From Phycisphaerae bacterium (GTDB taxonomy: Bacteria; Planctomycetota; Phycisphaerae; UBA1845; UTPLA1): 64,000 bases of DNA. The translations under genes were made by a program, and so were the position numbers. Each line of letters begins with the position of its first letter. Position 1 is the first letter of the stretch. The stretch spans positions 62,001 through 126,000 of the forward strand of contig JAHBXN010000008.1 in assembly GCA_019636475.1 (NCBI GenBank), in the 5' to 3' direction. Under the pieces are notes generated by a model. That model made no database searches and was not told the origin of the DNA. It was given only the letters and a program-made list of their open reading frames with translations. Shown here piece after piece: positions 3,011 through 41,821 of the stretch.

Positions 3011-4747
3011 ATGTCGGCGATCGCTTCGACCTCGGTCCTCGGATTTCGCGACAAGATTATGACACCTGAATCCCTCGTGCAGGTGCTGGAGCAGAAAAGG
3101 TGTCATCCGCGATCGTCCGGCACACTGAGCGGGTCCGGCTCGTTGACACGCCCAATCGTCGTTCAGTGTCACGGATGCTTCGACATCGTTCATCCGGGCC
3201 ACATACGCTACCTGCAGGCCGCAAGAGCGCAGGGCGACCTGCTCGTCGTATCAATCACCGGCGATGCGCGAATCGAGAAGGGCACGCAACGGCCGTACAT
3301 TCCGGAAGAACTGCGTGCGGAGAATCTGGCGGCACTGACGTTCGTTGATTATGTGGTGATCGATCCGCATCCGACGGCGGCTGAAGTGCTGGACTTGATT
3401 CGGCCGGACGTCTACGTCAAGGGCCGTGAGTATGCCACGAGCGACGATCCTCGGTTCCTGGCGGAGCGGGCGATCGTCGAGGGATATGGCGGCCTGGTTG
3501 TCTTCTCGAGTGGAGATGTTGTTTTCAGCTCGAGTCGAATTGTTGACTTGATGGCGGAAGAGATCGAACTGTCGGACACGCGGCTTGCACTCGTCTGCCA
3601 GCGTCACGGCGTAAGTCGATCTGCGATCGGCTCGCTGCTGGACGCTGCGAGCGGAAAGTTGTTCGTCGTCTATGGTGACGCATTCATTGAGCGATATGTG
3701 CTCTGTGATGACGGCGCCATGTCGACGGAGTCGCCGATGATGTCGCTTCGCGAACTGGATCAGCGCGATTTTCCAGGAGGTGCGGCGTTTATCGCATTAC
3801 AACTGGCGGCGCTGGGCGCGCGGCCGGTGCTGGTGACGTCGCAGAGCGGCGGCCCGCTCTCAAACCGGATGTGTGAGACGCTTCGGCAGCACGGCGTTGA
3901 GGTGCGTCCGATCGTTCCATCCGGCCATGTGGCGCGCGACGGCCGGGAAGTCGACTGCGCGGTCAACACGCGCTACCTCGTTGAAGACAAGAAAGTCTTT
4001 CGCATTCATCGATCGGGGGCGGCCTCGATTGATTCGGCTTTGGAGCGCGCAGTTTGCGCGGAACTGACATCCGCGGCGGAGGGAGATGCCGCTTTGATTT
4101 TGTATGACGCAGGATTCGGCGCTTTCTCACCGGGTCTGCGACGTGCGATCCAGGACGACCTGCGGCTTCGATTCTCATTCGTGGCAGGCGCCTGTGGCGA
4201 TTCGCAATCCCGCACGGAAGTCTTCAACGAAGTGGATCTGGCGTGCTGTTCCGAGCGCCGCCTGCGGGCTGCGTTGAACGAGCGTGACGCGGGCTTGTCA
4301 ACGCTTGCATACCGGCTGATGCAGGACACCGGCGCGCGTCGGCTGATCGGCACACTCGGCAAATGCGGTCTGGTGACTTTCGACCGGCCCTCGCACGATC
4401 GTTCGAGTCCATCGTGGGGCGGTCGTTTGCTCAGCGAGTATCTTCCTGCCTTCGGGACACAAATGGTGGATCGACTTGGTGCGGGTGACACGCTCTTTGC
4501 ATCGGCCGCTCTGGCCGTTGCCTGCGGTGGGAACCTCATGCAGGCCGCCTATCTCGGTGCGATTTCGGCGGGGCTGGCGATAGATCGGTTGGGTCCGAGC
4601 ACGGTCACCGCGGACGAGATTCGTCGCGTCACCCGGCATCGCCGAGAACTGGCGGTCGCCTCGATGTCGGGGGCGGAACGTACCGCCGCCCAGCGTGAGA
4701 GGAGCAGTTCGAGTCATGAACCGACCGCCTTCGCCGGTTGCCTTTGA
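3011..4747 (+). CDS. bifunctional nucleotidyltransferase / PfkB sugar kinase, HldE-like with domains in reverse order
   Basis: The protein has 578 residues. Residues about 48-185 form a cytidylyltransferase-type domain with HGCFDIVHPGHIRYL (the HxGH nucleotide motif) and a later VKGREYA. Residues about 205-555 form a PfkB-family kinase, with GGAAFIALQLAALGA and the catalytic signature RLGAGDTLFASAA near residue 490. In E. coli HldE, which makes ADP-heptose for LPS, the kinase comes first and the transferase second; here the order is reversed. The likely role is activation of a heptose or related sugar for a surface glycan. The exact sugar cannot be read from sequence. The start has AAAGGCGG upstream. 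The next gene, a glycosyltransferase, overlaps its 3' end by 32 bases, implying coupled expression. Confidence 0.85.
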   Translation: MSAIASTSVLGFRDKIMTPESLVQVLEQKRCHPRSSGTLSGSGSLTRPIVVQCHGCFDIVHPGHIRYLQAARAQGDLLVVSITGDARIEKGTQRPYIPEELRAENLAALTFVDYVVIDPHPTAAEVLDLIRPDVYVKGREYATSDDPRFLAERAIVEGYGGLVVFSSGDVVFSSSRIVDLMAEEIELSDTRLALVCQRHGVSRSAIGSLLDAASGKLFVVYGDAFIERYVLCDDGAMSTESPMMSLRELDQRDFPGGAAFIALQLAALGARPVLVTSQSGGPLSNRMCETLRQHGVEVRPIVPSGHVARDGREVDCAVNTRYLVEDKKVFRIHRSGAASIDSALERAVCAELTSAAEGDAALILYDAGFGAFSPGLRRAIQDDLRLRFSFVAGACGDSQSRTEVFNEVDLACCSERRLRAALNERDAGLSTLAYRLMQDTGARRLIGTLGKCGLVTFDRPSHDRSSPSWGGRLLSEYLPAFGTQMVDRLGAGDTLFASAALAVACGGNLMQAAYLGAISAGLAIDRLGPSTVTADEIRRVTRHRRELAVASMSGAERTAAQRERSSSSHEPTAFAGCL

Positions 4748-5948
4748 TTGCAGCCTGATCATACCCACGCGCAATCGTCGAGAGGTGTTGAGACACACGC
4801 TGGAAAAGCTGCACGCGCTGCCGGACAGCCGGCGTTTCGAGATGATCGTCGTTGATAACGGTTCGACGGATGGTTCAGAATCGCTTCGTTGGCAGTTTCC
4901 GCGGGTTCGTTGGATTTCTCTCGAAGAAAATATGTCAGCGGCGGCGAGAAATGTCGGGGCCCGGGCCGCGCGCGGACGCATACTTTTCATGCTCGATGAC
5001 GACAGCTGGCCCGAACCGGGTGTGCTGGATCGCGTTGTTTCCCGAATGGATGAGCGTCGGGAGCTTGGTGCGGTGGCCTGCCGCGTACTGCTGGCGGATT
5101 CCCCACAGCGGCATGATGCCGGTGGTGTACCGGGAGTGATTTTCAACTGCGGCGGCGCCGTTCGGCGGGACTCATTTCTGGATACGGGAGGCTATCCGCC
5201 GGAGTTTGGTTATTACGTCGAAGAATACGCCCTCTGCTGCCGATTGTGGCAGCGGGGTCTTCGAATCGAGCCGCACGGAGAACTGGTGGTTCGGCACCGC
5301 CGTACGGCTGAAAATCGCGATCACAATCGCATGGTGCGATATCTCATTCGCAATAACGTTGCATTGTGGCGGCGATTCGCACCGGATTCGCTGCGAGAAG
5401 ATCTCATTGCATCGACCCTGGAGCGGTATCGGCGCGTTGCAGTCAAGGAAGGCGCACTCATCGGCTATGAAGCTGCAATCCGTGGGCTGGAGGGCACGGA
5501 TGCCGCTCAAGACGATTCGAGGGAATTCGCCATTGGATTGGGTGAGTGTGCCAGATCTGAGGCACGTCCATTGACGGTCGTGGAGTTCGAATCGCTGTAT
5601 GGGCTGGAGATCGCCCGGCGGGTTTTGCGCGAGTGGACCGATAAGTATGGAATTCGGCGCGCTGCAATCTGGACGCGCGGAAAAGGCGCGGAACAGGTTG
5701 TCGATGTGGCGAATTCGCTTGGAATTCGCGTCGTCGCTGTTTATGATCCGCGCGGGTTGCACCTGGGTGAGACGCTGTGGCGCGGCGTGCCGTTGAGGGC
5801 CGTCGAGGATCGCGAGATGAAGGGCGTCGATGGCCTGATCGTCGGAAGTCTTTCGCCCGGTGCGGCTGAGGATCTCCGGCTGGAGTTATCCGCCTCGTTC
5901 GTTGGATTGCCGATTGTCTCGCTCGCGCCCTGGGCCGACGCCGGTTGA
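4716..5948 (+). CDS. family 2 glycosyltransferase with extra C-terminal domain
   Basis: The protein has 410 residues from ATG 4716, chosen because GAGAGGAG lies about 10 bases upstream. The GT-A fold is clear: SLIIPTRNRREVL at the N-terminus, VVDNGSTDGS, then MLDDDSWPEP with the metal-binding acidic residues. Residues about 290-410 add a Rossmann-like domain (RRAAIWTRGKGAEQVVDV, then VVAVYDPRG, then VDGLIVGSLSPGAAEDL), resembling the nucleotide/sugar-binding tails on some glycan enzymes. It probably transfers a sugar, possibly one activated by the upstream HldE-like protein, to a surface glycan. Donor and acceptor are unknown. Confidence 0.85.
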   Translation: MNRPPSPVAFDCSLIIPTRNRREVLRHTLEKLHALPDSRRFEMIVVDNGSTDGSESLRWQFPRVRWISLEENMSAAARNVGARAARGRILFMLDDDSWPEPGVLDRVVSRMDERRELGAVACRVLLADSPQRHDAGGVPGVIFNCGGAVRRDSFLDTGGYPPEFGYYVEEYALCCRLWQRGLRIEPHGELVVRHRRTAENRDHNRMVRYLIRNNVALWRRFAPDSLREDLIASTLERYRRVAVKEGALIGYEAAIRGLEGTDAAQDDSREFAIGLGECARSEARPLTVVEFESLYGLEIARRVLREWTDKYGIRRAAIWTRGKGAEQVVDVANSLGIRVVAVYDPRGLHLGETLWRGVPLRAVEDREMKGVDGLIVGSLSPGAAEDLRLELSASFVGLPIVSLAPWADAG

Positions 5949-6105: not shown

Positions 6106-7008
6106 GTGGAGATGTCATTGAGCCGTGATCGCTTCCGAATTCGACCGCTTCTCGCCGGGCAACTTCGCCCGGTGCGAACGCCGCCGCGCGCGACTCGGTC
6201 GGATCAGCAATCGAACGATCCGGCGCCACATTCCCTGCGAATCAGTTTCGAATCGCGAGCGGATTCAACGGACCTTGCTTCCACAGTCGAACACGACTCT
6301 CCCGCGGCCTGCCGCTCCGAGGCCGTGGATGCCGCGCTTTCAATCGCGGACCAAACACTTCAGCAGGTTCAATCTCTCCTGATCGAACTGGACGATATCT
6401 GGGGGCGAATCGGATCGGCTCTGGAGGATTCGATCGATCATGGCGCGTGCGACGCGGCTTCGAGGCCGATCGCCACGGCAGCGGTTCGCATCGCTGATGC
6501 GGACGGGTTTCAGTCTGAGATTGAACGGCGGATTGATTTCATCGATTGTGTGGCCGCATCGACGATCTATGAAAGCGTCGCCCTGTTTGACGGCGCCTGG
6601 TCGGTGTCGGTGCAGTCCGAGCGAGAGCCGACGGGTGTTTGCCACCTTCAATTGCCGCAAATTTCGGCTGCGACACTGGGCAGCGAGCAGATCGCGGGCC
6701 GTGTTGTGAATCTGCGAGCCGGCCAGGATTGTGCCGTCGCGATGGGCAACGCGGCGTCCGCGCGAGCGATCCTTCGTTCCGCGTTGTTTCAAATCATCGG
6801 ACATCGCGAGAGCATCGCGGCGTTTCGTCGTGATGTGCTGGCTTCGGCGATGGTCGCGGAAGGCATTGCATCGGAGATGACGAATGCAGCCGATGCCGCG
6901 ATTTTTGATCCCGACTTCATCGGCCGTGCCGGTGCGGTAACACGGGTGGACGCCCTGATTGCCGGCAGGATGAACGCGTCGGGCAGCGACTTTTTTTCTT
7001 ATTTCTGA
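6106..7008 (+). CDS. degenerate flagellin-like protein
   Basis: The protein has 300 residues from GTG 6106 (ATG 6112 is possible). The first 75 residues are Arg/Pro-rich and unlike flagellin. From there it parallels the true flagellin encoded just downstream: LSIADQTLQQVQSLLIEL matches the flagellin TADAALGEVSKLLLDI segment, and IDFIDCVAASTIYESVALFDG matches IDRIANSTQFNGKKLLNG. Near the end, ALFQIIGHRESIAAFRRDV and TNAADAAIFDPDF match the C-terminal flagellin helix and its A-I-R-D-T-D-Y. The canonical N-terminal polymerisation segment (the INTN start) is absent and the extreme C-terminus is altered. It is therefore a flagellin relative that may not polymerise. It may be a minor filament or junction protein, or a diverging duplicate. 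Confidence 0.7.
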   Translation: MEMSLSRDRFRIRPLLAGQLRPVRTPPRATRSDQQSNDPAPHSLRISFESRADSTDLASTVEHDSPAACRSEAVDAALSIADQTLQQVQSLLIELDDIWGRIGSALEDSIDHGACDAASRPIATAAVRIADADGFQSEIERRIDFIDCVAASTIYESVALFDGAWSVSVQSEREPTGVCHLQLPQISAATLGSEQIAGRVVNLRAGQDCAVAMGNAASARAILRSALFQIIGHRESIAAFRRDVLASAMVAEGIASEMTNAADAAIFDPDFIGRAGAVTRVDALIAGRMNASGSDFFSYF

Positions 7009-7463
7009 AGCAGCCTCATCCGCCGTCTCCTCTCCAGCCGTAATCAACCTGTCTGATAATAAGTACGGGCCCAATCTGCAATCCGGGATGTGGTTTTCAT
7101 TCGGCGGCATTTTCGGACGCGTTGCGGAAACGCGTGTCCCGGGCGTCGATTTTTTTCAACAAAGTCATTCAGGGACTAATGAAAGTCCCATCAGCGGTAG
7201 CCCGATAGGAATTGCGGTCACCGCGAGTGAGTCTCGCGAGGGCCGCATGAGGTAATTGAGATTCACGGGGCTGCACGACGCACGCATTTGTGAATCACCG
7301 AGACGACGCGAGCCCGCGACAAGGAAGATCAAGGGCGGCGAAGTTTCGAGATAGGCTGCCCGGATTTTCCTGTCAAAGGAAGGCCGGGCGAACCAGACAC
7401 GCGATGTTCGCGTGACCTGCCGCGGGACGGATCATTCGACCGCGGGTGTTCAGGGAGGAACCG
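7009..7463. other. flagellin upstream region, 455 bases
   Basis: No gene is visible. The region holds a candidate sigma-28 promoter (7181-7208) and the flagellin ribosome site (GGGAGGAA just before 7464). If that promoter is used, the flagellin mRNA has a leader of about 250 bases, long enough for post-transcriptional control, for example by CsrA. I did not identify a specific structure. Confidence 0.5.
7181..7208 (+). promoter_or_regulatory. candidate sigma-28 flagellar promoter for flagellin
   Basis: GAAAGTCC (7181-7188) and CCCGATAG (7201-7208) lie 12 bases apart. The sigma-28 (FliA) consensus is TAAAGTTT, 11 bases, GCCGATAA. The match is partial: 5 of 8 at -35 and 6 of 8 at -10. The position upstream of flagellin supports it. 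Confidence 0.45.
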
Positions 7464-8915
7464 ATGAGTCGTATCAATACCAACGTTCCGGCACTGACGG
7501 CGATCCACAAGCTCACCGCCAATACCCAATCGCTGAACAAGAGTCTTGAGCGACTCAGCTCGGGCCTGCGAATCAACCGCGGGGCCGATGATCCGGCGGG
7601 ACTCATCGCATCCGAGTCGCTCCGATCCGAGATCCGCGGCATCAACGCAGCGATCTCAAACTCGGAACGAGCGATCAACGTAATCTCGACGGCTGACGCC
7701 GCCCTGGGCGAGGTGTCGAAGCTTCTGCTCGACATCAAGGGGCTTGTCGTGCAGACCGCGAATGACGGTGGCCTGTCACGCGACGAGATTGAAGCCAATC
7801 AGCAGCAGATTGACTCGCTGCTGACGAGCATCGACCGTATCGCCAATTCCACGCAGTTCAACGGCAAAAAGCTGTTGAACGGCGGGCTGTCCTACAACAT
7901 TGAAGGACAGGACAAGACCAACCTGGCCCGAATTCAGCTCTTCGGAGCGCGCGTGCCGGAAGGTCAGTCATTGCCGATTGACGTGGCGGTTACCCAGTCG
8001 GCGTTGACGGCGCAGCTCAACATCGGCGTCGGTGGAACGACCGGCGTGACGACAAGCGGCTCGCTTTCCGCCGGCAACAGCATCACGCTAGAGATTCAGG
8101 GTTCTCGCGGAACCGAGTTGTTCAATTTCGCGAGCGGAACGACTCTTGCTCAGATTGCAACGGCGATCGCCGCCACGTCCGACCTCACTGGCGTCTCGGC
8201 GGTAGCCAGCAACAACGGCCTTGCCTTCACGAGCACCGCATACGGCAGCCGGCAGTTTGTGTCGGTCAAAGTCATCAGCGGAACGTTCGCGGTTCAGGCG
8301 GGTGACCAGGGCGACAGCAAGGACATCGGCCGCGACGCGCAGGTCTTCATCAACGGCCAGCAAGCCTCCGTGGATGGCCTGACGGCGAATCTGCGAAGCG
8401 CGGGACTCGACGTCGTCATCGATCTTACGAGCAGCTTTGGAACGGCGATCGGTAATGACTCGTTCTCGGTCACGGGCGGCGGCGCCAATTTCCAGATCGG
8501 CCCCAACGTCAACAGCCAGGGTCGAATCAGCGTTGGCATCGAATCGATCACGGCAGCCAACCTGGGCACCACGGAAGCAGGCTTCCTGCATACGCTGGGC
8601 ACCGGCCGCGGCGCTCAGATTCTGGACGCGGAAAATCTGCCGCGTGCGGAACAGATCGTGAATGCCGCGATCAACCAGATCTCTCGGTTGTCAGGCCGGC
8701 TCGGTGGCTTCCAGGCCAACCAGGTGGAAACGAATCTGAACAGCCTTCGCGTCGCGTTGGAAAACGTCACCGCGTCGGAATCGGCGATTCGCGACACAGA
8801 CTACTCCGCCGAGGTTTCGAATCTGACGAGGGCGCAAATCCTGCTGCAATCAACGACGAACATCCTCGGCCTCGCGAACTCGGTGCCGCAGAACGTCTTG
8901 TCTCTACTCAGATAA
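7464..8915 (+). CDS. fliC: flagellin
   Basis: The protein has 483 residues from ATG 7464, preceded by GGGAGGAA. The N-terminus (SRINTNVPALTAIHKL, then LERLSSGLRINRGADDPAGL) and the C-terminus (ASESAIRDTDYSAEVSNLTR, then VPQNVLSLLR) are the two halves of the conserved flagellin D0/D1 core. A variable middle of about 200 residues forms the filament surface and contains a Flagellin_IN-like segment. Flagellin is exported through the flagellar type III system and polymerises into the filament under the FliD cap, encoded downstream. A strong hairpin at 8985-9027 probably ends its transcript. Confidence 0.97.
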   Translation: MSRINTNVPALTAIHKLTANTQSLNKSLERLSSGLRINRGADDPAGLIASESLRSEIRGINAAISNSERAINVISTADAALGEVSKLLLDIKGLVVQTANDGGLSRDEIEANQQQIDSLLTSIDRIANSTQFNGKKLLNGGLSYNIEGQDKTNLARIQLFGARVPEGQSLPIDVAVTQSALTAQLNIGVGGTTGVTTSGSLSAGNSITLEIQGSRGTELFNFASGTTLAQIATAIAATSDLTGVSAVASNNGLAFTSTAYGSRQFVSVKVISGTFAVQAGDQGDSKDIGRDAQVFINGQQASVDGLTANLRSAGLDVVIDLTSSFGTAIGNDSFSVTGGGANFQIGPNVNSQGRISVGIESITAANLGTTEAGFLHTLGTGRGAQILDAENLPRAEQIVNAAINQISRLSGRLGGFQANQVETNLNSLRVALENVTASESAIRDTDYSAEVSNLTRAQILLQSTTNILGLANSVPQNVLSLLR

Positions 8916-9439: not shown

Positions 9440-12400
9440 ATGTCCAGCATCACGAGCGGCGTTGGCCTCGTTTCGGGGCTGCCGATTAAGGATCTTGTCG
9501 ATAGCCTGATTGCCGTTCAGGCGCGACCGATCACGCAGCTTCAGAGCCGGCTCGGCGTCTTCAGCGGCCGGCGGACCGGACTGCTTCAGATTTCGGCCCA
9601 ACTGCTTTCAATCAAGACCGCGATCACGCGCTTCGGCCAAGCGTCATTTTTCAACACGTCCACGGCGAATTCGTCAAACTCGGACACGCTTGCCGTTTCG
9701 GCGGGCAGCAACGCGACCATTGGCGATTATTCATTGCTCGTGCGGAATCTCGCAACAAAACACCAACTCGTGTCGCGCGGCTTCGCGACTGCGGATCAGT
9801 CGGCGGTCGGCGCGGGAACGATCACCATCGAATCGGCCGCGGGACAGGTCAATCGCGCAACGCGGCTGAGTGAACTCAATGGCGGTTCCGGCGTTCAGGT
9901 GGGCAAGATTCGGATCACCGATCGAACCGGCGCGTCGGCGACCGTCGATCTGGTCGGCGCCTTGACCATCACGGACGTCGTGGATCGCATCAACGGGGCG
10001 AACGGTGTCGGTGTCACGGCACGAATCGATGGAGACCGGCTGATCGTCGAAGATCAAACGGGCGGGGCAGGGACCCTCAGCGTGGGAGAAGTCGGCGCCG
10101 GGCGCACAGCCGCCGATCTGGGCCTGCTTCAATCTTCGGCATCGAATTCGCTCATCGGCCAGAGGATTGTATATCTCGACGACAGCACCCGATTGGGAAC
10201 CTTGAACGATGGCAACGGCATTCGTCGGCGCAATCTGGCGAATGACCTTTCGTTCACATTGCGCGACGGTTCCTCGCTCGGTTTCAATTTGTCAGACGCG
10301 ATTCAGCAGAACACTCCGCTTTCGCTTTTGAATTCAGCCGCCGGCGTGCCATCCGGGAAAATCAAGATCACCAACCGTGCCGGGGCCTCGGCAGAGGTCG
10401 ACCTGAACGGTGCTGTGACGGTGCAGGACGTGATCGACCGCGTGAGCGCGGCCGGCATCCAAGTCGCGTTGACGGTAAGTGGTTCACGGCTGACGCTGCT
10501 GGATACGTCCATTACCGGCGGGCAGACCGCGCAGTCCAGTTTGAAGGTTGAGGATGTCGATTCGACGACCGCCCAGGCGCTGGGAATCGCGAGCACGGGG
10601 CTTTCGGATCGCATTCAGGGCAATCGCATTTATTTCGTGGAAACCGTCGGCGATGTGCTCCGCATCATCAATTCATCGCCGCAGAATCTTGACGCGGTGA
10701 CCGGCGCGCCTCGGATTTCCGCCGCGATCGCCGCGGACGGACGAGGCATCGTCATCAATGACCTGACGAACGGTTCGGGATCTTTCGTCGTCGGCGAGTC
10801 GAATGTGGCTCGCGATCTCGGACTCGGCTCGACACCTTCCGGAATGAACGGCCCGCCGGTTTCGTCGCTTTCTTCGGGCGCCCTGGTTGCCGGTCTGAAT
10901 ACGGTGCTGCTGCGCTCCCTGAATGGCGGAGCGGGTGTCAACCTGACCGATCTGCGGATCGGTGATCGTTCAGGCGGTCCGCTGGTCTCGGTCAATCTCA
11001 GTGGGGCGACGACGCTTTCGGATGTGATCGATGCGATCAACGCGGCCGGAACAGGCGTGCGTGCCGCCGTCGCGGCATCCGGGTTGGGAATTGAGCTGAC
11101 GGACACCTCCGGCGGATCTTCCAATCTGCGCATTCAGGGTGCAACTGCCGATTCCCTCGGTATTGCCACCGATGCCGCGGTTTCAGCTCGCAAGGGCGCA
11201 AACCTCCAGCGCCAGTACGTTTCCGAGGCGACTCGGCGATCGGACTTCAATCTCGGCGCAGGGATTCCGAGCGGGCGATTCAGGATTACCGACAGCAATG
11301 GCGCCAGCGCGGTGGTCGATCTGACCGGCGACGAACGGACCATCGGCGAAATCATCTCCGAAATTAACTCACGCGGCATCGGGGTCCTTGCGCGAATCAA
11401 CGATTCGGGGGACGGTCTGCTGCTGACCGATACGGCCGGCGGGGCGGGCCGGCTTCGCGTCGCGGAAGACGGCGGCACGGTGGCCAAATCACTTGGAATT
11501 CTTGGCCAGGCGGCCGAAGGAGAGGCCTTCATCGATGGCTCGCTCGAACGGCGCATCGTCGTTTCGGGCAGCGATTCGCTCAACAATGTGCTCGCGAAGA
11601 TTCAATCAAGCGGGGCGGCCGTCAATGCGTCCATTATCAACGATGGCTCCGGCGGCGCCGCGTATCGATTGAACCTCGTGGGCACGCGGACCGGATTCAA
11701 CGGCGCGCTGGCGATCGACACGGGCACGACGGGGCTGCTGTTCGACGAACTTTCGCGAGCGCGGGATGCCGTCGTCATACTGGGAGAGGCCGGAGCGGAT
11801 CGGCCGCTGGTACTTTCTTCGGGATCGAACACGCTGGAAGGCGTGATTGCCGGCGTGAAGATCGACCTTGTGGCGGCGTCTGAGACGCCGGTCCAAGTGA
11901 CGGTCCGTCGCGATCTTGATGCAATTGTCTCACAGGCCAAAACGCTCGTGAATGCGTTCAACACCGTAATCGGCACGCTCGATAATCTGACTCGATTCGA
12001 TCCGGAGACGTTTGCACGCGGCGTGCTGCAGGGCGATTCGACGGCGCGACGCGTTCGCCAGACGCTCACGGCGCTTGCCAACACGCCCGTGAATGGCGCG
12101 TCCGGCGGATTGAATCGCCTCAGCAGTGTGGGCATCAAGCTGGGGAGCAACTCGAAGCTCGAGCTTGACGAGGCCAGGCTGCGGGCGGCACTGGAGTCCG
12201 ATCCGGAGGGGGTAAAAAATCTATTCGCCGCCGAAGAGTCCTCGGCCGACGGCGTGAAGACCGTGATCGGGCTTGCAGGCGTCATTCAGCGCGAGATCAA
12301 TCGACTGACGGATGTTGATAACGGGCTGATTACATTGCAGGAGGAGTCGCTCCAGACTTCCGAATCCCAGTTGCAGAATCGAATCAGTTCGTTGACGAAA

Positions 12401-12523
12401 CTTCTGGCGTCTCGGCGCGAACGATTGATGGCCCAGTTCCAGAATATGGAAACGGTCATCGCCAATCTTCAGAGCCAGCAGAATTCGATTGCAGCACTGT
12501 CGTCCTTGATTCCGTCTTCGTAA
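9440..12523 (+). CDS. fliD: flagellar filament cap protein FliD, greatly enlarged by IN repeats
   Basis: The protein has 1027 residues from ATG 9440, with GGAGACGG upstream; FliD is usually 400-700. The N-terminus (SGVGLVSGLPIKDLVDSLI, then QLQSRLGVFSGRRTGLLQI) and the C-terminus (LVNAFNTVIGTLDNLTRFD, then INRLTDVDNGLITLQEES) are typical FliD_N and FliD_C. Between them, at about residues 140-230, 297-383, 490-577 and 599-690, are four full Flagellin_IN-type repeats with the pattern L..LN.G.GV..G.I.I.DR.G..A.VDL.GA.T..DVID.IN. Partial copies lie near 250-290, 405-465 and 715-760. FliD caps the growing filament and folds flagellin. FliS follows in the usual order. The repeats should form surface domains on the cap. 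Confidence 0.95.
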   Translation: MSSITSGVGLVSGLPIKDLVDSLIAVQARPITQLQSRLGVFSGRRTGLLQISAQLLSIKTAITRFGQASFFNTSTANSSNSDTLAVSAGSNATIGDYSLLVRNLATKHQLVSRGFATADQSAVGAGTITIESAAGQVNRATRLSELNGGSGVQVGKIRITDRTGASATVDLVGALTITDVVDRINGANGVGVTARIDGDRLIVEDQTGGAGTLSVGEVGAGRTAADLGLLQSSASNSLIGQRIVYLDDSTRLGTLNDGNGIRRRNLANDLSFTLRDGSSLGFNLSDAIQQNTPLSLLNSAAGVPSGKIKITNRAGASAEVDLNGAVTVQDVIDRVSAAGIQVALTVSGSRLTLLDTSITGGQTAQSSLKVEDVDSTTAQALGIASTGLSDRIQGNRIYFVETVGDVLRIINSSPQNLDAVTGAPRISAAIAADGRGIVINDLTNGSGSFVVGESNVARDLGLGSTPSGMNGPPVSSLSSGALVAGLNTVLLRSLNGGAGVNLTDLRIGDRSGGPLVSVNLSGATTLSDVIDAINAAGTGVRAAVAASGLGIELTDTSGGSSNLRIQGATADSLGIATDAAVSARKGANLQRQYVSEATRRSDFNLGAGIPSGRFRITDSNGASAVVDLTGDERTIGEIISEINSRGIGVLARINDSGDGLLLTDTAGGAGRLRVAEDGGTVAKSLGILGQAAEGEAFIDGSLERRIVVSGSDSLNNVLAKIQSSGAAVNASIINDGSGGAAYRLNLVGTRTGFNGALAIDTGTTGLLFDELSRARDAVVILGEAGADRPLVLSSGSNTLEGVIAGVKIDLVAASETPVQVTVRRDLDAIVSQAKTLVNAFNTVIGTLDNLTRFDPETFARGVLQGDSTARRVRQTLTALANTPVNGASGGLNRLSSVGIKLGSNSKLELDEARLRAALESDPEGVKNLFAAEESSADGVKTVIGLAGVIQREINRLTDVDNGLITLQEESLQTSESQLQNRISSLTKLLASRRERLMAQFQNMETVIANLQSQQNSIAALSSLIPSS

Positions 12524-12692
12524 TCGGGGATTCATCCTCGATTTCGGCGGATTTCGCGCACCGACTGGCCCAGGCCGCCGTTCGATAACTCATGTCACAA
12601 TCTCCGCCGACCGATGGAGTCGTTGAGTTTGACGATGGCCAGCGCGAGAGATGATCGCTGCTGGGCCAAATCCGTCACGGAGCAGGCTACGG

Positions 12693-13154
12693 ATGACGAC
12701 TGACGCCGGCGGCGAATACCTGAAGAACGCGGTGATGACCGCTACACCCGAACAGCTGCAACTCATGCTGTATGATGGCGCGATTCGGTTTGCTTCGCAG
12801 GCGCGGGACGCGCTGGCTCGTGCTGATTATGAGGAGAGCTGCGAGAAACTCATTCGCGCACAGAACATTGTCCTTGAAATGCGAAACGGGCTGCGGCACG
12901 AAGTGAACGCGACGCTTTGCTCGCAACTCGCGTCGCTCTACACTTTCATCTACAACCGTCTCGTTGAAGCGAATCTGAAGCGAAGCGCCGGAGCGATTGA
13001 TGAAGCGCTGAAAGTTCTGCATCATCAGCGTGAAACGTGGCAGTTGCTGATTGAAAAAGTGAAGTCTGAACGATCAAAGACCGTCCGGCGAACGCCGCCG
13101 GTCGCAGCCGCATCGGCTCCGGGCGTCGGATTGTCGCTCAGCATTGAGGGCTGA
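12693..13154 (+). CDS. fliS: flagellin export chaperone FliS
   Basis: The protein has 153 residues from ATG 12693. It matches the FliS family in length and motifs: YLKNAVMTATPEQLQLMLYDGAI at the N-terminus, then a helical bundle with CEKLIRAQNIVLEMRNGL and LYTFIYNRLVEANLKRS. FliS binds the C-terminus of flagellin in the cytoplasm to stop early polymerisation and delivers it for export. It follows fliD, the common order. The last 25 residues are Pro/Ala-rich and probably disordered. Confidence 0.95.
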   Translation: MTTDAGGEYLKNAVMTATPEQLQLMLYDGAIRFASQARDALARADYEESCEKLIRAQNIVLEMRNGLRHEVNATLCSQLASLYTFIYNRLVEANLKRSAGAIDEALKVLHHQRETWQLLIEKVKSERSKTVRRTPPVAAASAPGVGLSLSIEG

Positions 13155-37092: not shown

Positions 37093-38187
37093 TCACGTGC
37101 CGGCTCGTTCACTCGCAATTGGCGGCTGACGGAGTACCGACGTCGGCCTGCGGCTGATGGTGCTGGTCGACTTGCGGCCGGTCGCCGCCGTGTCGATCGC
37201 ACTGAGAATCCCGGGACCCACGATCGAATCGTCTTCAACGATGGCTCCATCGCCGACATATGCGTAAGGTCCGACGATGCAGCGTGCGCCGATCCGGGCG
37301 TTCCCCTCGATATAACTGAACGGTTTGATCTCGCAGTCGTGACCGACTTGCGCTCGGCTGTCGATCCATGTGGAATCCGGATCGACAATGGTTACGCCCT
37401 GTTCCATCCAGCCGTTTTGAATCCGCCGCTGCATCAGTTTCGCGACCTCAGCCAGATCGACGCGGGAGTTGATCCCGACCGCATCGACGGCCGGCACCTG
37501 GGTCGAAGCGAGGACCGTGCCGCCGTCGGCTCGGATGATTTCGAGCAGATCAGTGATGTAATACTCGCCCTTGGCGTTGTTCGGCTGCACTTTCGGCAGA
37601 GCCGAAAGCAGGGTGGCCGCGTCAAAGCAGTAGTAGCTTGGATTCACTTCCTTGATTTCGAGCTGCTGCGGCGTGCAATCTCGATGCTCAACGATTTTCT
37701 CGAACTCGCCCGAACTGCCGCGGACGATTCGGCCGTAGCCGGTGGGATCGTCGAGGAATGTTGTCGCGATCGACGCCTTTGCGGCCGCGGCTCGATGACA
37801 CTGAAGCAAGGCGCTGAGTGTTTCAGCTCGGATCATCGGCATGTCGCCGGCAATAACGATGACATCCCCAACGAAGCCCTTCAGCTTGTCCGCACACATC
37901 GAGACAGCGTGCGCCGTGCCTTTCTGTTCAACCTGTTCGACGAATGTCACGCCCGGCTCGTTCGAGAAATGCCGGATGATCGCGTCTTTCGCAAAGCCGA
38001 CCACGACGTGAAAGCGGTCGAGACCGGCCGACCGACAGGCGCCGAAGACATACGACAGCATCGGTCTGCCGCATAGCTCGTGCATGACCTTCGGCAACTC
38101 GGTCTTCATCCGCGTGCTCTTGCCGGCTGCGAGAATGATGACAGCGGCCTGACGCTGGGGAATCTTGCTTTTCTGCGGGTTGTTCAT
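37093..38187 (-). CDS. glmU: GlmU-like N-acetylglucosamine-1-phosphate uridyltransferase, C-terminally short
   Basis: The protein has 364 residues from ATG 38187; ATG 38211 is possible. GlmU is usually about 456. The pyrophosphorylase domain is intact: VIILAAGKSTRMKTELPKVMHEL, VEQKGTAHAVSMC, VIAGDMPMIR and GEYYITDLLEI. Only three or four hexapeptide turns of the left-handed helix follow (IDSRAQVGHDCEIKPFSYIE, then GARCIVGPYAYVG). The rest of the acetyltransferase domain is replaced by a Ser/Arg/Thr-rich tail. It should make UDP-GlcNAc from GlcNAc-1-P. The acetyl-transfer step would need another protein. Confidence 0.85.
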   Translation of the reverse strand: MNNPQKSKIPQRQAAVIILAAGKSTRMKTELPKVMHELCGRPMLSYVFGACRSAGLDRFHVVVGFAKDAIIRHFSNEPGVTFVEQVEQKGTAHAVSMCADKLKGFVGDVIVIAGDMPMIRAETLSALLQCHRAAAAKASIATTFLDDPTGYGRIVRGSSGEFEKIVEHRDCTPQQLEIKEVNPSYYCFDAATLLSALPKVQPNNAKGEYYITDLLEIIRADGGTVLASTQVPAVDAVGINSRVDLAEVAKLMQRRIQNGWMEQGVTIVDPDSTWIDSRAQVGHDCEIKPFSYIEGNARIGARCIVGPYAYVGDGAIVEDDSIVGPGILSAIDTAATGRKSTSTISRRPTSVLRQPPIASERAGT

Positions 38188-38297
38188 GTGAATCAGTACA
38201 TTCGGACACATGAATGTCGCCGGGGTTTCGCTTCGACGAAAATCCGGAGCGACCTCAGGTGTCCAATTGCGCCGGCCTTCCCGGCGCCGGACAACGA

Positions 38298-38368
38298 CTA
38301 CCCGGCGAGGACTCGAACCTCGACAAGCAGGACCAAAACCTGCTGTGCTACCATTACACTACCGGGTA
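38298..38368 (-). tRNA. tRNA-Gln (anticodon UUG)
   Basis: Read on the minus strand, the 7-bp acceptor stem is TACCCGG with CCGGGTA. The D-arm has GTGT/GCAC, and the anticodon stem GCAGG/CCTGC has the loop TTTTGGT, giving anticodon TTG. The variable loop is 4 bases. The T-arm CGAGG/CCTCG has loop TTCGAGT, and the discriminator is G. The U-A first pair is typical of tRNA-Gln. CCA is not encoded. It lies 110 bases upstream of the glmU-like gene on the same strand. Confidence 0.96.
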
Positions 38369-38586
38369 ATGGGCGTTATTCGGTTTTCCCTGCATGCAGC
38401 GACGACATGGCCGCGATTTCGAGGCTCGGGACAACTGGCCCGGGGCCCAAGGTTCGCTACCATTGATGAGACGCGGCTGCGAAGGTGCTCTCCAAGGCTA
38501 GTACGTCCGGCCGCGTTGCTGGACGCCCTTTGACCGCCATCACACTTCGGCTACTTCGGTCTGCCCTCAGGTCGAGCGAGCAGGGC

Positions 38587-38614
38587 AATATACCCTGTGC
38601 GCTGCTGGTGTCAA
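38587..38614 (-). promoter_or_regulatory. strong sigma-70 promoter upstream of tRNA-Gln
   Basis: On the minus strand TTGACA (38609-38614, perfect) and TATATT (38587-38592, 5 of 6) are 16 bases apart. Expected start is near 38580. No gene start follows closely; the next mapped product is tRNA-Gln. Confidence 0.65.
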
Positions 38615-38715
38615 TGGGTCGATATGCAACGGAAGGCTCCGTGCAGTGTGACGTCCGTAACTTTCCTCCCATGCAATGGATACGCTGGTCTAAGCTTCGG
38701 TCCGTTGATCTGTGC

Positions 38716-38744
38716 TTGAAAACAGACCGACTGGTCGGTATAGT
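38716..38744 (+). promoter_or_regulatory. sigma-70 promoter for tetR-dinB
   Basis: TTGAAA (38716-38721, 5 of 6) and TATAGT (38739-38744, 5 of 6) have a 17-base spacer. The predicted transcript start falls at about 38751, which is the A of the tetR ATG, so the mRNA may have no leader. Confidence 0.7.
38726..38739 (+). promoter_or_regulatory. inverted-repeat operator, likely TetR-family binding site
   Basis: ACCGAC-TG-GTCGGT is a perfect 6-bp inverted repeat placed between the -35 and -10 of the tetR promoter. This is the classic geometry for autorepression by a TetR-family dimer. Its sequence resembles known TetR/AcrR-type sites. Confidence 0.7.
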
Positions 38745-38750
38745 AAGGCT

Positions 38751-39407
38751 ATGGACCAGATTCCCAAGGAAACTGCGAAGGAAAGGATCATCCGCCAGGC
38801 GATCGAGCTGTTTCGTCGGACCGGATTTCTCGCGACGACGGTGGATCAGGTCTGCGCGGCTGCCGGGGTGAGCAAGGGAGCGTTTTTTCACCACTTCGGC
38901 AGCAAGGAGGAGTTGGCGGAAGCCTGCCTGTCGCGTTGGTGTTCGATGCTCCAGGAAATGGAGCAGGAAGCGCCCTTCTGCAGACACCCGGATCCGCTGG
39001 AAAAGCTGAAAGGCGCGATGGAATTCCATATCGGGGTCTTTGAGTCGCCCGACGTCATCAAGTCGTGCCTCGCCGGAACGACCGTTCAAGAAGTCTCCGA
39101 GACTCACCCACGACTGCGCGAAGCGTCCAATGCGTGCTTTACAGCCGGCAGGATCCGTTTTGCCGCGTTGATCGACGGGGCTGCTGCGGCCTGTGGAAAG
39201 CCGGTCGATTCGTCATCGATGGCGGCGCTGTGGCTCGCGACGATGCAGGGGGCGCTTCTGCTTTACAAGGCCTCGAACGATTCTATGGTGATTCGGAGCA
39301 CGCTGTCGCAGGTTCGCGATTACATCATTTGTCAATTGTCAGCGTCGGATGCGAGTAAGCATGTCGGCGAAGTCTCTTCATCCCCAGATAGCGAGGATTC
39401 AAAATGA
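38751..39407 (+). CDS. TetR/AcrR-family transcriptional regulator
   Basis: The protein has 218 residues from ATG 38751. The N-terminal helix-turn-helix is canonical: KERIIRQAIELFRRTGFLATTVDQVCAAAGVSKGAFFHHFGSKEEL (residues about 9-55, written here for its motif positions). The C-terminal domain, which senses a ligand, includes CLAGTTVQEVSETHP. It probably represses its own promoter through the inverted repeat at 38726-38739. The stop overlaps the dinB-like start (ATGA), so the two form an operon. The inducer is unknown. Confidence 0.93.
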   Translation: MDQIPKETAKERIIRQAIELFRRTGFLATTVDQVCAAAGVSKGAFFHHFGSKEELAEACLSRWCSMLQEMEQEAPFCRHPDPLEKLKGAMEFHIGVFESPDVIKSCLAGTTVQEVSETHPRLREASNACFTAGRIRFAALIDGAAAACGKPVDSSSMAALWLATMQGALLLYKASNDSMVIRSTLSQVRDYIICQLSASDASKHVGEVSSSPDSEDSK

Positions 39408-39907
39408 CCGTGGCCAGTCTGTTTTTGCAGGAGTTTGAGCAGGAGAGCCGTACGACTCACAGATTCCTGGAGCGCACCCCTGAAGACAAGCTGAATTGGC
39501 GGCCGCATGAAAAGTCCATGACCGTCGGTCAGTTGGCGCTGCACATCGCGGCTGCGCCGGGCGCCATCATCGAGATGGCCATTCAGAATGACGTGGCCGC
39601 ACCTGATTTCAGCCGGCCCGCGCCTCAGCCTGCAAGCAAGGCGGAGATCATGGCGGCTTTCGCGATGAGCGTTTCGGCGGTGAAGACGAGCCTCCCGACG
39701 ATTTCCGATGCGGCCATGCAGGAAACATGGAGGGCGCTTCGCGGCGACAAGGTGCTGTTTGAAATGCCCCGCGCGGCGTTTGTTCGCAGCATTCTGCTCA
39801 ATCACATCTACCATCATCGAGGTCAGTTCGGAGTCTATCTTCGATTGCTCGGCGCGCAGGTACCGTCGAGCTACGGCCCGAGCGCGGACGAGACGCCGGG
39901 CGGTTGA
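39404..39907 (+). CDS. DinB-family (metal-dependent, four-helix) protein
   Basis: The protein has 167 residues. Its ATG overlaps the tetR stop. The DinB fold pattern is clear: LERTPEDKLNWRPHEKSMTVGQLALHIA near the start and LLNHIYHHRGQFGVYLRLLG near the end, which supply the three His metal ligands. Members include thiol-S-transferases such as bacillithiol or mycothiol transferases and enzymes of unknown substrate. Control by a linked TetR regulator suggests detoxification or stress. The thiol partner is not known here. Confidence 0.85.
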   Translation: MTVASLFLQEFEQESRTTHRFLERTPEDKLNWRPHEKSMTVGQLALHIAAAPGAIIEMAIQNDVAAPDFSRPAPQPASKAEIMAAFAMSVSAVKTSLPTISDAAMQETWRALRGDKVLFEMPRAAFVRSILLNHIYHHRGQFGVYLRLLGAQVPSSYGPSADETPGG

Positions 39908-40018
39908 CAAACCGAGTCGCGGATTTCCCTTGGGCGGTCAGTTGATTTCAACCGTCAGACCAGTCTTGCCCCCGCAAGCCGTCGGCAGTTCTTTTGCGAT
40001 TCCCGATGCTCCGGTGGA

Positions 40019-40588
40019 TCATGAGCGGGGCCGGATATAGCGGACAGCCGCGGGAAAATCCGCCTCCACCGGACCAGTTCGGACCCAGTCCGACGGGTTC
40101 CACTCCGGAAAGAAGGTGTCACCGGGGAAATCCCCTTCGATGGTGGTGATGAACAGTTCGTCGGCCCGATCGATCGTTGAGGCGTAGAGTTGGCCGCCAC
40201 CGATGATGAAGGCAGTCTCCTCGCTTCGTCGGCGGCACAGTTCGACAGCGTCGTCGACAGTTCGGACCACATCGAGGCACGTTTGATCGGGAGACCTCCG
40301 CGCGGCCTCATCGTCGGGGCTGAACAGCACGGCGATGGCCGGATCGCCGCTCTGTGTGAGTGACTTCGCGACCTTTGGCCGATAGCCAGCGTGTCGTGTG
40401 ATGATGATGTTTCGGCGGCGGGGCAGAGGGCGCCCCATTGATTCGTAAGTCTTGCGTCCCATGATCACTGCGTGGCCTTGGGTGGTGCGTTTGAAGAACT
40501 TCAGATCCTCCGGAACATGCCAGGGCAGTCGGCCGTCCTTGCCGATCACTCGGTCGGCAGTCATGGCGACGATAATGATGATCTTCAT
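40019..40588 (-). CDS. folA: dihydrofolate reductase
   Basis: The protein has 189 residues. It has the motif set of the enzyme: VAMTADRVIGKDGRLPWHVPEDLKFFKRTT, then VIMGRKTYESMGRPLPRRRNIIIT, and TAFIIGGGQLYAST. The length exceeds E. coli FolA (159) because of an insert of about 25 residues near the middle (SLTQSGDPAIAVLFSPDDEA). It makes tetrahydrofolate. Divergent from the OmpA-like gene. Confidence 0.93.
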   Translation of the reverse strand: MKIIIIVAMTADRVIGKDGRLPWHVPEDLKFFKRTTQGHAVIMGRKTYESMGRPLPRRRNIIITRHAGYRPKVAKSLTQSGDPAIAVLFSPDDEAARRSPDQTCLDVVRTVDDAVELCRRRSEETAFIIGGGQLYASTIDRADELFITTIEGDFPGDTFFPEWNPSDWVRTGPVEADFPAAVRYIRPRS

Positions 40589-40948
40589 GCCGTATTTGTA
40601 ACGCGGGGGGCGGCGGGAGCAAACGGGCCGAATTCGTGTTGTTGATCGGAACGCCGGGCGTGGGGACTTTGCCTCTCGAATTGAATCGGGCCGGAAAGCC
40701 GGGGCGACTGTGAATTCATTGTCGCGGGGAAGAACTCACAGCGGGTCTTGATCGTCCTGATTCATGGGCAGTGCGAAGTCGTGTGTTCAGGCGGCGTCGC
40801 GTTGCCTGTTGATTTGCAAGTTTGAACGGATCAACCGTTGATACGATGTGGATGGTTCAGCATAATGCTTGCTTGTTATCGCGCGGGGCGCGTGGTGGAA
40901 CGGACACGGAATAAAGTCATTTTCTTTTATGGATGCTGGAGGCTTAGG
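40589..40948. other. divergent intergenic region, 360 bases
   Basis: This lies between folA (minus) and the OmpA-like gene (plus). An open frame reaches back to 40838 but the lipoprotein signal and GGAGG favour the 40949 start, leaving the rest noncoding. I see no RNA gene. Confidence 0.4.
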
Positions 40949-41821
40949 ATGAGCAGAGTCAGGATGATGACACTGATTGCGGGGCTGGGGGCGACGTGGC
41001 TGATGTCGACGGGCTGCGTCTCTCAGGATGAATACCTTCGCGAGAAGTTCGCACGACGAAAGGCCGTCGAACGATGCGAAACGCTCGAGCGCGACCTGCA
41101 GGACGAGCGCAACCGCGTGATGGCACTGGAGACGGAGCGAGAGAGCCTTCGAAACCAGTTGAACGCCAAGAACGAACTGGCGGATAACTACAAGGCCGAG
41201 CGCGATCGACTGGAAGAGTATGTTGCGAGGCTGCAGGCGGATCTGGATCGCCTCGGTGGACAGGGACTGGGCGAAATCAAGGTCGTCGAAGTGAAACTTC
41301 CGCCTGAACTGGATCGGGCGTTGCAGGAATTTGCTTCAAAGTATCCGGACGCGGTTGAATACGATCCACGCCGAGGCGCGGTTCGATGGAAGAGCGATCT
41401 GACCTTTGACAAGGGCAGTGATCATGTTCGGCAGAATGTGATCGATTCGCTGAGATCGTTCGCCCAGATTGTGAACTCGCCGGCTGCCAGCAGTTTCGAG
41501 GTGGTCGTGGTGGGGCATACCGACAATCTGCGAATCGTGAACCCTGCTACGCTCCGCGACCATCCGACGAATTGGCATCTCTCCGTACATCGAGCCATCT
41601 CGGTGATGGGTGTGCTCGGCTCGAATGGCGTGGCTTCGACACGGCTCGGCGTGATGGGTTACGGCGAGTTCCGGCCGCGAGTCCCGAATCCTGCCACGGG
41701 CGGCAGCGAGGCCAATCGCCGGGTCGAAATTTTCCTTGTAAGCACGAACGAGGCCATACCGACCGACACGACGGGAGCGGTTGCACCGTACGAACCGGTG
41801 CACGTCGCGTCCGGCAATTGA
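40949..41821 (+). CDS. OmpA/Pal-like peptidoglycan-binding lipoprotein
   Basis: The protein has 290 residues from ATG 40949, with GGAGG 12 bases upstream. The signal ends in a lipobox (ATWLMSTGC). Residues about 30-105 form an acidic/basic coiled coil with YKAERDRLEEYVARLQADL. The OmpA domain follows: LTFDKGSDHVRQNVIDSLR, VVVVGHTDNLRI, LSVHRAISVMGVLGSNGV and GYGEFRPRVPNPATGGSEANRRVEI, with the Asp and Arg that bind diaminopimelate. It tethers the outer membrane to peptidoglycan. A strong terminator follows. Confidence 0.92.
   Translation: MSRVRMMTLIAGLGATWLMSTGCVSQDEYLREKFARRKAVERCETLERDLQDERNRVMALETERESLRNQLNAKNELADNYKAERDRLEEYVARLQADLDRLGGQGLGEIKVVEVKLPPELDRALQEFASKYPDAVEYDPRRGAVRWKSDLTFDKGSDHVRQNVIDSLRSFAQIVNSPAASSFEVVVVGHTDNLRIVNPATLRDHPTNWHLSVHRAISVMGVLGSNGVASTRLGVMGYGEFRPRVPNPATGGSEANRRVEIFLVSTNEAIPTDTTGAVAPYEPVHVASGN

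Follow-up and report, generated by a model that had tools for sequence, protein, structure and literature searches.

The locus and the start of the gene

On the forward strand of the window, by which we mean the whole stretch of 64,000 nucleotides that was analysed, positions 6106 to 7008 form an open reading frame of 300 codons. It lies between a glycosyltransferase gene and a flagellin gene, which is followed by fliD and fliS. An earlier note on this DNA had described the frame as a degenerate flagellin beside a true one. The open frame and its full-length neighbour at 7464–8915 are both confirmed; the neighbour encodes a flagellin of 483 amino acids, referred to here as type B (Flagellin_N 122 bits and Flagellin_C 61.8 bits in Pfam). 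Pfam also identifies FliD (9440–12523) and FliS (12651–13154) downstream and, on the other side, a family 2 glycosyltransferase (4695–5948) and a fusion of a cytidylyltransferase-like domain with PfkB (3011–4747), all on the forward strand. Frames resembling the fusion were seen by eye farther upstream in several related loci. The two genes at 3011–5948 adjoin flagellin at many loci of the bacterial family and possibly serve to provide sugars for flagellin.

The note had the frame begin at the GTG 6106. It is indeed open over this extent, but translation probably starts at the TTG 6118, because a GGAG ribosome-binding site (6108–6111) stands 6 nt ahead of this codon and because the protein read from there opens with MSRDRFRIRPLL, flush with its orthologues in the alignment. 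The likely product is a D0-less, flagellin-A-like protein of 296 amino acids (6118–7008). Five of its 12 known family members start with TTG, three with GTG, one with CTG and three with ATG, where the TTG of the window and the CTG of G008 were assigned in this analysis.

Match to flagellin and replacement of D0

Against Pfam Flagellin_N the protein scores 15 bits with a cut-off of 26.6, no match to Flagellin_C was reported for it, and the cut-offs of these two models are reached by none of the six orthologues given (out of 11). The flagellin models of NCBIfam match it at E = 1.1e-6, far under their cut-offs, and a profile built from the 12 members hits flagellin in the PDB at E = 3.8e-19. Two members were modelled with AlphaFold, and both models display the flagellin D1 core with disordered ends. 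For the window protein the mean pLDDT is 64, with block means of up to 94 in D1 and values below 50 at residues 6–62 and 273–296; for the second member the mean is 72, with block means of 81–96 along most D1 helices and values below 50 at residues 11–46 and 240–271. The modelled D1 is composed of N-terminal helices (residues 63–148, positions 6304–6561), a beta hairpin (residues 162–178, 6601–6651) with an LFDG turn just upstream, and a long C-terminal helix (residues 212–262, 6751–6903); the helices at both ends were also recovered with VIA-align.

With Foldseek both models place two Bacillus flagellin–FliS entries on top, and the second model retrieves chains of the hook–filament junction and of FlgL from rank 5 down. 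VIA-align superimposes the window model on two FliC chains with Z = 16.4 and an rmsd of 2.2–2.7 Å over 143–154 residues, a score which exceeds, not by far, the value of about 13 up to which Z can be meaningless for helical folds. FlgL is no closer relative than flagellin, as NCBIfam matches flagellin models alone and flagellins head both the Foldseek and the PDB profile lists. The D1-type segments pointed out in the earlier note thus find their counterpart in flagellin by sequence profiles, by predicted fold and in 12 intact orthologues, and we regard the match to D1 as real. Neither of the two outcomes named in the note as fatal to its idea, a product unlike D1 in structure or broken frames in most close relatives, was observed. 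A D1 without D0 is also seen in the F41 fragment of Salmonella flagellin (PDB 1io1), which aligns with the window model at Z = 14.9. F41 is an artificial proteolytic fragment, whereas here the D0-less form is a gene.

Compared with the flagellins FliC and Hag (PF00669, PF00700), the protein family shares the D1 fold, a relic of the N-terminus, the LRINR motif, in most members the EN...D motif, and the gene order beside fliD and fliS. It differs in that both D0 helices are overwritten, in its length (296 versus 483 amino acids in flagellin B) and in scoring below the Flagellin_N cut-off. Eleven of the 12 members retain the Asn of flagellin's 'EN' pair in D1-C; the window protein has Met instead.

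The earlier note had the INTN-type N-terminus replaced by an Arg/Pro-rich region. This applies from about residue 18 onwards, whereas residues 1–17 (6118–6168) still derive from flagellin and open the stretch in which the family is best conserved. They are collinear with the N-terminus of flagellin A, of which they form a basic variant (xRPLLAGx), and the basic relic retained across the family can be written xxLLAARxxxxRRPP. When residues 2–17 of the 12 members were aligned without gaps to 22 A-type flagellins, none of 20,000 column shuffles scored as well, and for residues 4–17 all but three of 20,000 scored worse; for residues 2–17 against B-type flagellins the count was 248 of 20,000 and against C-type 16 of 20,000. 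Residues 18–33 match none of the types A, B or C, and against A 12,476 of 20,000 shuffles were equally good. These shuffles handle the 12 members as one set, with their kinship uncorrected.

The Pro/Arg-rich segment that takes the place of the ND0 helix spans residues 18–45 (6169–6252). Within residues 18–40 each member has two to five prolines (five in the window protein), whereas the 45 flagellins compared (types A, B and C) have none or one. The segment ends near LRISF, a relic of flagellin LRINR; the LRxx motif near residue 40 appears to be flagellin's own LRINR, on which 'LRLS' falls in the profile alignment. A short LRL or LRI motif follows the Pro/Arg segment (6235–6246 in the window) and recurs C-terminally in several members (L036, L038, L039, L074); the window protein has no second, C-terminal copy. 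At the other end residues 273–296 (6934–7005) replace the CD0 helix, and the hydrophobic tail of flagellin including its final SLLR is gone, which bears out the altered C-terminus described in the note. To judge from the sequences and the models, D0 has been overwritten rather than merely deleted, both helices having given way to Pro/Arg-rich or polar sequence that is predicted to be disordered.

Orthologues, selection and descent

The first orthologues came from a search of 61 genomes, where they lay amid many ordinary flagellins. A profile search then recovered orthologues in 12 of 17 genomes of the bacterial family, from eight genera (G000, G001, G004, G005, G006, G007, G008, G010, G012, G014, G015 and G016). 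All 12 orthologous frames are free of internal stops; in G000 and G008, where one stop each was scored, the match had run past the gene's terminal codon. In ten carriers the gene lies immediately upstream of flagellin B, in G005 (L087) the end of the contig truncates the flagellin B behind it, and in G016 the flagellin is not adjacent.

Outside the bacterial family the gene was looked for in several samples. In a sample of the order (114 genomes) the 97 genomes beyond the family gave no orthologue at E = 1e-27; three matches there cover D1-C alone within frames of 497–525 amino acids and are therefore ordinary flagellins. In a sample of the class (347 genomes, E = 1e-27) the single further match among those listed came from another family (G130). 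It is a frame of 200 amino acids, close to where its contig of 3,428 bases breaks off, and we take it for a putative truncated flagellin. In this class sample seven candidates per genome were scored among the matches listed, and the carrier G004 was not among these matches; absence from the class is therefore not proven. The window protein alone, used as query against named genomes, found no relative, and an alignment of the first seven orthologues offered no stretch conserved enough to serve as query. We therefore used the neighbouring glycosyltransferase, which led to 42 named loci, seven with a D0-less orthologue, all planctomycetes; four of these seven records are titled Phycisphaerae or Phycisphaerales. 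The other 35 loci gave no match to the D0-less profile (frames of at least 150 amino acids, E = 1e-3). No relative was found in phage records. A literature search that covered open-access papers and few subscription journals listed no publication about a planctomycete protein of this type.

The conserved neighbourhood might be taken to mean that the protein is an accessory factor for flagellin glycosylation with the neighbouring glycosyltransferase as its partner, since a related glycosyltransferase lies immediately upstream at nine of the 12 loci; at a tenth, L040 of G004, the contig stops too early to judge. However, the upstream stretch examined in G007 and G008 lacks any such frame although the D0-less gene still stands beside flagellin there, and in G009 and G011 the glycosyltransferase adjoins a full-length flagellin A. 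We consider such a role improbable.

The earlier note had also raised the possibility of a decaying copy. A decaying flagellin duplicate would account for the high divergence, the lost D0 helices and the Pfam score under the cut-off. Against this stand the 12 unbroken frames, the conservation of the N-terminal motif across eight genera, and the substitution pattern in the one close pair on which the estimate for this gene is based: between G014 and G005 dS is 0.315 and dN 0.030 over 271 codons, hence dN/dS 0.095, and the first 30 codons hold four synonymous and no nonsynonymous differences. For the same pair dN/dS of four neighbouring genes ranges from 0.017 to 0.147, and flagellin B has no amino-acid change in 136 comparable codons. 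Decay is thus very improbable in our opinion, and the frame looks like a real, functional-looking conserved gene.

Between genera the protein family is nevertheless fast-evolving at the level of sequence. In the same ten genomes mean identity in D1-N is 21% versus 77% for flagellin B, in D1 as a whole 21–27% versus 77–81%, and in the N-terminal 17 residues 47% versus 75%. Within the family the N-terminal 25 residues reach a mean pairwise identity of 47% compared with 17–31% elsewhere; this best conserved part therefore points to a partner-binding peptide. The low identity of D1 also bears on the idea of a minor component of the filament or the hook junction, attaching through D1 without D0. 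The position of the gene within the filament gene cluster and the junction and FlgL chains retrieved with the second model would agree with this, but contact surfaces of D1 would then be expected to be conserved, and there is no D0 for the core. We find this idea hard to sustain, and a cap or terminator of filament growth, as suggested in the earlier note, received no support in this analysis.

Where did the gene come from? In three genomes without it (G003, G009, G011) a second full-length flagellin, type A, occupies its place, and in two more (G002, G013) the locus has neither, so that the tally over the 17 genomes is three with flagellin A, 12 with the D0-less form and two with neither. Elsewhere in the 12 carriers no typed flagellin match is of type A, all being B, C or D; the typing leaves aside one short-frame match in G016 (C512), and the flagellins of non-carriers were typed in part. 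Type D is present in each of the 12 carriers (L003 on contig C6 of G000, L138, L140–L145, L147, L148, L150 and L151) and starts with MGLTVxNxNT in 11 of them; the stretch of L142 examined does not show it.

In a tree without the near-duplicate G005 the D0-less family is monophyletic (UFBoot 100) and stands next to flagellin A with a weak support of 40. In the first FastTree tree the midpoint root fell inside the family; unrooted, its split between family and flagellins agrees with the later tree. A profile of 22 A sequences gave a strong preference of the family for A, yet D-type flagellins preferred A as well. With balanced profiles of three sequences each, A scored above B in 12 of 12 members and above C in 11 of 12, and D-type flagellins also favoured A over B and C (11 of 11). 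A was the best of the four type profiles in nine of the 12 members. Because of these nine, the like preference of the D types and the tree support of 40, gene position is the stronger argument for descent from A. The D0-less family seems to have arisen once, from flagellin A; descent from the A copy in an ancestral tandem pair of flagellins is supported less strongly.

The possible role of a flagellin without D0

Lacking D0, the protein presumably cannot enter the filament core. We suggest, as the tentative reading we lean to and by analogy with known systems, that it is a flagellin mimic which competes for flagellin-handling factors, FliS or FliW. The decoy for FliS or FliW of the earlier note is in this respect plausible. 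A mimic that stays in the cytoplasm might, with less certainty, occupy the flagellin-docking surfaces on FliS and/or FliW with its D1 and its N-terminal peptide. This could bias flagellin export or the FliW–CsrA control of flagellin B translation.

A precedent is HP1076 of Helicobacter pylori (PDB 3K1H, 3K1I, 6LEA), likewise a small, lineage-specific, D1-shaped protein without D0 in a flagellated organism. According to PMC7248283, HP1076 does not polymerise and competes with flagellins for FliS, and an hp1076-null strain has no detrimental flagellation or motility phenotype; unlike the D0-less protein, HP1076 is described there as structurally related to flagellin and as associated with the membrane. 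HP1076 is not among the best 60 of 78 profile matches nor among the structure matches listed, which is uninformative either way.

What is known of the partners cuts both ways. In Bacillus subtilis, as described in PMC6070490, FliW protects flagellin residues 11–34, 50–72 and 240–260, while the binding site of FliS comprises D0-C and a portion of D1-C. By these contact sites the regions touched by FliW therefore seem partly kept in the D0-less protein, which has lost the D0-C site used by FliS. Counting against a FliS mimic, C. jejuni FliS needs the last 10 residues of flagellin (PMC5466977), and these have no counterpart here. Counting against a FliW mimic, the same paper reports that FliW does not bind the non-structural FlaC of C. 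jejuni. A conserved docking face on D1 is not favoured either, given that the members are 21–27% identical there.

FliS was found in all 17 genomes of the bacterial family and FliW in 15; the source genome has one of each, with CsrA close to FliW. The two genomes in which no FliW was found are both carriers, G004 (75% complete) and G015 (97% complete), and all five non-carriers have FliW; the presence of the D0-less gene therefore does not track FliW. In G015 a type C flagellin was not found either, which could be a real loss or an assembly gap. On contig C14 of G000 (about 37288–41811; L002, L004, L123, L124) FliW, CsrA and a third flagellin, of type C, are clustered, adjoined by a weaker flagellin-type match that is a candidate FlgL.

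A close rival, which we rate as possible and below the mimic, is that the protein is an exported, non-polymerising flagellin whose N-terminal peptide is an export signal, so that it would use the flagellar type III system to leave the cell and would act outside or at the surface. Its best conserved part is precisely the retained N-terminus, predicted to be disordered and descended from that of flagellin, and the fast divergence of D1 fits a surface-exposed protein. There are precedents in the flagellin-homologous proteins of Vibrio (PMC6692518) and in Campylobacter FlaC (PMC5466977), which are likewise additional flagellin paralogues that do not serve as filament subunits, with the difference that those are secreted. 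But FlaC, according to PMC5466977, depends on FliS for secretion and keeps a C-terminal LLQ end within the FliS-binding region, an end that the D0-less family has lost together with the flagellin C-terminus needed by C. jejuni FliS. The mostly weak start codons also speak against export.

Returning to the flagellin mimic, we also propose a more specific version, which we consider rather unlikely as a whole. A flagellin gene would have been converted once, early in the bacterial family, to a dedicated non-polymerising regulator that titrates FliW and/or FliS and thereby sets the FliW–CsrA switch on flagellin B, whose leader has a conserved CAGGGAGGA as a putative ribosome-binding site that CsrA could bind. 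This element lies at the ribosome-binding site of flagellin B in 12 of 13 leaders (the window, at 7451–7459, and L035, L036, L038, L040 and L071–L078, all but L078) and in none of three flagellin A leaders; as judged from sequence it is a possible CsrA site. Hairpins in the flagellin B leaders were also considered as CsrA sites and were rejected, as the folding energies of six leaders do not stand out from those of shuffled sequences (z between −1.18 and 0.04).

In summary, the D0-less gene offers a traceable case in which a filament subunit has lost polymerisation yet stays under selection, and sister genera still have the full-length flagellin in that gene position. Should its product bind FliS or FliW, its plain descent in sequence would illustrate how mimics of flagellin like HP1076 can arise, and flagellin homeostasis in planctomycetes would gain a component that has gone unrecognised.
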